Origin: Chloroflexota bacterium
Lineage (GTDB): Bacteria > Chloroflexota > Anaerolineae > DUEN01
DNA length: 32,897 nucleotides
Direction of reading: 5' to 3'
NCBI GenBank assembly: GCA_013152435.1
Contig: JAADGJ010000066.1
Coordinates: 1-32,897 of the forward strand
Each line of letters begins with the position of its first letter. Position 1 is the stretch's first letter. This document shows, piece after piece, positions 11,165 to 11,508 of this stretch. Under the pieces are notes generated by a model. That model did not search any database. It had not been told where the DNA came from and worked only from the letters and a program-made list of their open reading frames with translations. The position numbers were made by a program, and so were the translations under genes.

Positions 11165-11356
11165 GCGAACAGGCTGTGAACAGGAGTAGTAGGCCAGCCC
11201 CACAGCGAGTCGGGAAAGACCAGGTGGGAGCCCGATCACGGTGGCAATGGGGCCCGCCATAAAGGCCGAACTCGCCTGGGAGCCCTGGCCCTCAAACCTA
11301 CATTAGGGGACAGCGGGAGCGCCCGTTATCGCGCATAGAGCGGTCGGAGATTGCAC

Positions 11357-11429
11357 GGGGCTGTAGCTCAGCTGGGAGAGCGCCTCAATGGCATTGAGGA
11401 GGTCAGGGGTTCGAATCCCCTCAGCTCCA
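11357..11429 (+). tRNA. tRNA-Ala (anticodon GGC), embedded in the T-box leader
   Basis: A complete 73-base cloverleaf with acceptor GGGGCTG/CAGCTCC including G3-U70, anticodon arm CCTCA/TGAGG around ATGGCAT, and T-arm AGGGG-TTCGAAT-CCCCT. Discriminator A; CCA not encoded. The anticodon reads GCC (and GCU by wobble). It is flanked by GTCGGAG (11343-11349) and CTCCGAC (11442-11448), which are exact reverse complements, so the tRNA sits in the loop of a T-box helix immediately upstream of the antiterminator. Confidence 0.97.
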
Positions 11430-11469
11430 CCTACTCGCTAGCTCCGACAACCAGGGTGGTACCGCGGAG

Positions 11470-11508
11470 AACCCCTTCGTCCCTGAAGGCGATGGGGTTT
11501 TCTTCTTA
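11470..11508 (+). terminator. T-box-controlled intrinsic terminator
   Basis: AACCCC-T-TCG (11470-11479) pairs with CGA-T-GGGGTT (11490-11499) with one T-T mismatch, followed by a T-rich run to 11508. The loop holds CCCTG, which is the 3' arm of the antiterminator, so the two structures exclude each other. Confidence 0.8.

Follow-up and report, generated by a model that had tools for sequence, protein, structure and literature searches.

In tRNA-mRNA polycistronic operons, such as the E. coli tRNA operon with tufB, a tRNA is cotranscribed with a protein-coding message and excised from it by processing. A tRNA gene can also lie inside another gene, as shown by the tRNA-Sec gene nested in selB, where tRNA processing was proposed to compete with the host message (Mukai 2021, PMC8124441). 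For T-box leaders, a review defines the discriminator as 5'-RRRxG-Stem III-AA-3', adjoining helices A1/A2 and the UGGN bulge, and mentions lineage-specific insertions, including insertions in Stem III, whose structure and function are not known (PMC7583486). Here, we analyze a 32,897-nt stretch of DNA from a Chloroflexota bacterium (contig JAADGJ010000066.1; "the window" throughout), in which an intact tRNA-Ala(GGC) gene lies within a T-box leader, between the specifier-bearing Stem I and the antiterminator.

Anatomy of the leader and its Stem III

The features of the leader and of its surroundings are as follows:

10991-11019, + strand: sigma-70-like promoter, TTGACA-17-TATACT (11/12 matches), about 12 nt 5' of the first tRNA
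11032-11104, + strand: tRNA-Ala(CGC), presumed first gene of the transcript (ARAGORN; RF00005, 65.9 bits)
11107-11164, + strand: hairpin TTATCG...CGATAA in the interval between tRNA-Ala(CGC) and the T-box (read from the sequence)
11167-11487, + strand: T-box leader, RF00230 model positions 1-219, with a 91-nt insertion (76.1 bits, E 1.1e-16)
11183-11293, + strand: T-box Stem I with its motif, AG bulge, distal loop and specifier side (RF00230 alignment, sequence)
11183-11192, + strand: Stem I motif GGAGTAGTAG (read from the sequence)
11271-11273, + strand: specifier codon CTC (Leu) within GAACTCG (sequence; CTC conserved across the nested set)
11310-11335, + strand: hairpin with the CCGTTA(TC) motif, 5' of Stem III (RF00230 alignment; CCGTTAT at 11323-11329)
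11338-11342, + strand: GAGCG, the RRRxG purine motif 5' of Stem III (sequence)
11343-11349, + strand: Stem III 5' arm, GTCGGAG (RF00230 alignment, covariation)
11357-11429, + strand: intact tRNA-Ala(GGC) in the Stem III loop (ARAGORN; RF00005, 66.4 bits, cut-off 29)
11442-11448, + strand: Stem III 3' arm, CTCCGAC, followed by the conserved AA at 11449-11450 (RF00230 alignment, covariation)
11453-11484, + strand: antiterminator region (RF00230 alignment; 3' strand CGTCCCT at 11478-11484)
11453-11467, + strand: T-box sequence AGGGTGGTACCGCGG, with UGGU at 11457-11460 for the tRNA ACCA end
about 11470-11507, + strand: intrinsic terminator AACCCC...GGGGTT, then TTCTTCTT (sequence; terminator-like site found)
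11577-12497, + strand: first ORF 3' of the leader (ORF; ilvE or leuS homologues downstream in relatives)
13307-16207, + strand: leuS (leucyl-tRNA synthetase) ORF, further downstream on the same strand (ORF; tblastn query)

An earlier note, made from the letters of the window, had proposed a continuous T-box leader with the tRNA in the loop of a hairpin, and had named rejection of stem I by a T-box model as an outcome that would speak against it. ARAGORN, Rfam and reading of the sequence placed the T-box elements, the tRNA and the terminator at or within a few bases of where that note had put them. RF00230 accepted the whole leader, Stem I included: every part of the model, first position through last, aligned to 11167-11487, and 91 nt stayed unaligned in the hairpin loop that precedes the antiterminator; these 91 nt are the tRNA-Ala(GGC) plus a few bases on each side. 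At 76.1 bits, the window scores below Rfam's curated cut-off of 93, so that it is aligned at a permissive threshold and receives no call at the curated one. The model also ran full length across the tRNA in all 18 further nested loci tested, six of which exceed the Rfam cut-off, with a maximum of 142 bits.

The leucine specificity claimed earlier was supported by the CTC specifier and by the presence of leuS and ilvE downstream; the ORF at 11577-12497 is, as we presume from recognition of its sequence, an ilvE-like branched-chain aminotransferase. A specifier GCC, which would match the tRNA-Ala(GGC) in cis, was rejected: the bases after CTC vary (GCC, ACC, GTC), whereas CTC itself is constant. 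Of 196 nestings, 184 carry the CCGTTA motif, with one mismatch allowed, 5' of the tRNA. At the 3' end of the leader, the strand CGTCCCT is common to the antiterminator and the terminator, which are predicted to be mutually exclusive folds. Two loci from Coprothermobacterota and Caldisericota (L119 and L143) have a very short Stem I, consisting of the specifier hairpin only and devoid of the distal AG-bulge part. The hairpin at 11107-11164 is long and imperfect and occurs in base-changed versions in loci of the same family (L040, L041, and L043); since it lacks a T run it is not an intrinsic terminator, and it is perhaps a processing signal.

The motifs of the discriminator are all present in the window (GAGCG at 11338-11342, AA at 11449-11450, UGGU at 11457-11460), with covariation in the nested set, and the arms GTCGGAG and CTCCGAC that enclose the tRNA are exact complements. 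To evaluate this helix we used 128 anchored, nonredundant loci, chosen for AA on the 3' side, of which 113 carry AGTG, AGCG, or AGAG 5' of the helix flanking the tRNA. The first five pairs of Stem III form in 92% of cases in cis versus 60% (sd 1.5) when arms are swapped between loci; with the register reoptimized, 4.60 of 5 pairs form in cis versus 3.33 (sd 0.07) in the swapped controls. These controls rule out chance pairing of the closing arms and agree with the earlier claim that they constitute a real helix, in which GC, AT, TA, CG, and GT pairs are all in use across loci. Measured from the tRNA, the helix stops a median of 8 nt upstream and resumes about 9.5 nt downstream. Minimum-energy folds of the leader were no better than those of shuffled sequences and do not reveal the placement of Stem III; for this reason, the structural evidence consists of covariation and the covariance model rather than of folding energy. 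Taken together, the conserved RRRxG and AA flanks and the cis pairing of the helix argue that the tRNA replaces the loop of Stem III. In four loci from one group of genomes of the class (L048, L098, L105, and L158), an extra GC-rich trailer hairpin, e.g., GGCCGGTCG...CGACCGGTC, lies between the tRNA and Stem III.

Spread of the nesting and departures from it

Approximately 200 distinct loci, belonging to six or more bacterial phyla, show the same nesting, a recurrence that identifies it as a real conserved unit and, probably, as a widespread and old architecture rather than a one-off insertion. The hairpin loop into which, according to the earlier proposal, the tRNA had been inserted (or in which it had grown) is that of Stem III of the discriminator. 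The phyla are Bacillota (Syntrophomonas, Thermosyntropha, Desulfofundulus, Desulfotruncus, and others), Chloroflexota (Anaerolineae, Caldilineales, Ktedonobacteria, and Thermomicrobia), Armatimonadota, Atribacterota, Coprothermobacterota, and Caldisericota; lone metagenome bins labelled Pseudomonadota or Thermodesulfobacteriota also match, with labels that are possibly wrong. A strict pattern, requiring the T arm and acceptor end of a tRNA, with the T-box sequence following at a distance of no more than about 70 nt, matched 53 of 396 genomes of the window's class, 74 of 348 in the phylum of Syntrophomonas wolfei, 19 of 111 in that of Dictyobacter, and 19 of 43 in that of an Armatimonadetes locus (L144). 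A reversed, shape-matched control pattern gave no match in any of these four genome sets. The match positions of two named loci (L138 and L158) agree with those of genomes of the window's class (G134 and G239), which thus includes Caldilineales and Anaerolineae members and makes the window most likely anaerolinean.

A looser pattern, applied to one genome per named species and allowing any tRNA rather than requiring alanine, retrieved at least 120 stretches, and a complete tRNA-Ala(GGC) precedes the T-box sequence in 114 of the 120 matches listed. Among the same matches, two candidates for other tRNAs in T-boxes were discarded, namely, one tRNA-Ala(CGC) with no Stem I (L178) and one tRNA-Thr located off the T-box (L180); the remaining ones have no tRNA (L104 and L108) or tRNAs cut by the ends of the locus (L113 and L214). 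Downstream, leuS or ilvE is present in 123 of 136 representative nested loci; a simple terminator pattern (GTCC plus a T run) matches only 101 of them.

The nested tRNA is uniform. It is tRNA-Ala(GGC) in 194 of the 196 distinct nestings listed, and the CTC (Leu) specifier is matched by pattern in the large majority of nestings and visible by eye in most of the others. G3-U70 and A73 are present in every one of the 194 nested tRNA-Ala(GGC), of which 128 encode the full CCA; the copy in the window shares both elements and encodes CC, not the full CCA. In 67 of 71 nested genomes, the nested copy is the single tRNA-Ala(GGC) according to a pattern for GGC-anticodon tRNAs (a count that treats extra matches in G414 and G441 as not tRNA-Ala), the other four having a second GGC copy; in the window's assembly, it is the only GGC-anticodon tRNA found. 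The cell therefore probably needs the nested tRNA, which, given its usual single-copy status, is likely processed, charged, and used in translation. Since motifs, identity elements, single copy, and fit to RF00230 are all kept, neither the T-box nor the tRNA looks like a relic; judged by this conservation, both modules are under selection.

Within the genus and the family, and across many families of the class, the elements are usually arranged as promoter, tRNA-Ala(CGC), Stem I, tRNA-Ala(GGC), antiterminator, and terminator. When we read 30 loci of the class, 18 (the window included) were nested and one was cut by a contig end, while four (L059, L063, L066, and L067) had both tRNAs before an intact T-box and seven had both tRNAs and no T-box found within the stretch. 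These relatives indicate that nesting is dispensable.

Some loci depart from the usual order in other ways. L055, L061, and L062 carry tRNA-Ala(CGC) and tRNA-Ala(GGC) in tandem with no recognizable T-box; a short distance 3' of the tRNA they have a terminator with CCCTGA or CTTCGTC that resembles the remains of a T-box. In L095 and L178, tRNA-Ala(CGC) directly precedes the 3' half of a T-box, with neither Stem I nor CTC specifier upstream; they look like deletion derivatives of the nested state. The atribacterial locus L217 has a nested tRNA-Ala and an apparently deleted Stem I region, which the related L152, L159, and L168 retain. Elsewhere in the window's own genome (L002, on contig G000:C94), a T-box at 22311-22535 lies some 40 nt downstream of a tRNA-Val(GAC) at 22198-22271, from which it is separated by a small GC-rich hairpin.

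Transcription of the nested tRNA and competing readings

Among 91 representative loci with no upstream tRNA, 72 have a promoter-like site at most 120 nt before Stem I, and such a site lies between Stem I and the tRNA in two. In 39 of the 41 nested relatives that do have an upstream tRNA (Ala CGC in 40 of the 41), a promoter-like site precedes that tRNA; the gap from the tRNA to the Stem I motif can be as short as 20 nt, which leaves no room for a second promoter. The upstream tRNA-Ala of the window (CGC, 11032-11104), absent from the earlier note, has 5' of itself the sole good promoter-like site nearby on this strand, so that one transcript probably includes both tRNAs and the T-box, and the nested tRNA seems to depend on the promoter of the leader.

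The explanation that we favor, and consider reasonably probable, is a composite RNA unit, i.e., a leucine T-box attenuator with a CTC specifier whose Stem III loop carries tRNA-Ala(GGC) and whose regulatory decision is taken before the tRNA is excised. Transcription would start before tRNA-Ala(CGC) in the window and just before Stem I in most other phyla. Polymerase would reach the nested tRNA before the terminator, such that tRNA-Ala would be made with leucine plentiful or scarce alike, and its transcript, too, would end at the T-box terminator. Uncharged tRNA-Leu(GAG) would bind Stem I and the UGGU bulge and thereby allow readthrough into ilvE/leuS, Stem III being retained around the tRNA so that the discriminator can still form. 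In the simplest order, the cotranscriptional T-box decision would come first, and RNase P and 3' processing would excise the tRNA afterwards. The sequences show the anatomy, its conservation and covariation, the tRNA identity elements, the usual single copy, and where promoter-like sites lie; mature tRNA production, leucine-dependent readthrough, and this order of decision and excision are what we infer. The earlier suggestion that the tRNA is a by-product of leucine-starvation transcription is unlikely, because the gene lies upstream of the terminator, is transcribed regardless of it, and is usually the only tRNA-Ala(GGC) gene found.

It is possible, if unlikely, that the arrangement is a frozen accident, in which tRNA-Ala(GGC) was inserted once, in ancient times, into a tolerant loop and has been kept since loss of the only copy would be lethal, with T-box and tRNA acting independently and neither gaining from sharing. 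The occurrence of the same isoacceptor, specifier, and insertion site everywhere implies either one origin, as this account suggests, or strong functional constraint. A tree of LeuS from 82 nested loci groups mostly by phylum, with 10 label changes compared with a least possible number of 7 and a shuffled mean of 36.5; this clustering, which speaks for the composite unit as well as for an accident, fits old, mostly vertical inheritance, in a tree that contains nested loci only and hence does not separate loss from transfer. That some relatives have left the nested state also agrees with an accident, but both modules have stayed intact across very deep lineages. Moreover, this account predicts the same RNAs as the composite unit, the main difference being that it credits the shared promoter and terminator with no benefit.

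A reading that we consider quite doubtful couples the switch to processing: excision of the tRNA would compete with the termination decision, or would leave a T-box in two pieces joined by Stem III. A race between polymerase, tRNA-Leu, and processing would then set leuS/ilvE expression and couple leucine sensing to the supply of tRNA-Ala. The cut sites do separate the sensor (Stem I) from the antiterminator, the isoacceptor is always the same, the conserved closing helix could hold the halves together after excision (median of 6 contiguous pairs), and RNase P is known to act more slowly where the 5' leader region is structured (PMC9433436). Yet closing helices are often short (10th percentile of 1 contiguous pair), the terminator in the window follows the tRNA 3' end by only about 70 to 80 nt, which leaves little time, and no alanine sensor is found in the sequence.

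That the T-box has decayed, leaving a mere tRNA operon with a terminator, is very improbable. The window's score under the Rfam cut-off and the loci that keep tRNAs and terminator without a T-box (L055, L061, and L062) could be taken this way, but specifier, RRRxG/AA, T-box bulge, and Stem III pairing are conserved and nested relatives reach 142 bits.

Finally, an assembly artefact joining T-box halves and tRNA at the repeated tRNA-Ala sequence, an outcome that the earlier note had allowed for and that two 95%-identical tRNA-Ala genes 325 nt apart in a 149-contig assembly might suggest, is hardly conceivable and is refuted by independent genomes, as the same structure occurs in the genus and family, in very many other genomes, on megabase contigs (e.g., G453, G625, and G680), and in cultured isolates (e.g., Syntrophomonas wolfei and Dictyobacter).

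Relation to described systems

The remark in the earlier note that it knew of no described case agrees with our limited literature search outside Vitreschak 2008 and Gutierrez-Preciado 2009, which included portions of the T-box database paper, of a 2008 in silico survey, and of a 2020 review, and in which no account of a T-box containing a tRNA gene came to light. The term "tRNA gene" does not occur in the T-box review PMC7583486. Because the nesting is so common, a passing mention somewhere is possible.

The arrangement amounts to a riboswitch that contains the gene for another, probably essential, RNA and that is conserved over very deep bacterial divergence, with one transcript doing two jobs that are usually treated separately. 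On this view, many species are predicted to rely on the promoter of a leuS/ilvE leader for their only tRNA-Ala(GGC), the attenuated leader RNA would be a precursor and not waste, and Stem III of a T-box would be able to hold a folded 73-nt RNA with its role intact. The arrangement also offers a natural system for studying the temporal order of cotranscriptional switching and tRNA processing. For annotation the arrangement is a warning, in that the Rfam cut-off misses the T-box of the window.

With described T-box leaders, the nested leaders share Stem I with its specifier, the CCGTTA region, the RRRxG-Stem III-AA discriminator, the UGGN bulge, the antiterminator/terminator switch, and an aminoacyl-tRNA synthetase or amino acid gene downstream. 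They differ in that the Stem III loop is small there and holds a complete tRNA-Ala(GGC) gene here; in the window, the transcript additionally begins with a second tRNA. As in tRNA-mRNA operons, the tRNA shares its transcript with a downstream protein gene, whereas in those operons it is placed before the gene and not within a regulatory fold upstream of a conditional terminator. The nearest idea is that of tRNA-Sec and selB, where a tRNA gene also lies inside another expressed unit; there, however, the host is a protein ORF, and here a structured riboswitch domain that retains its fold.
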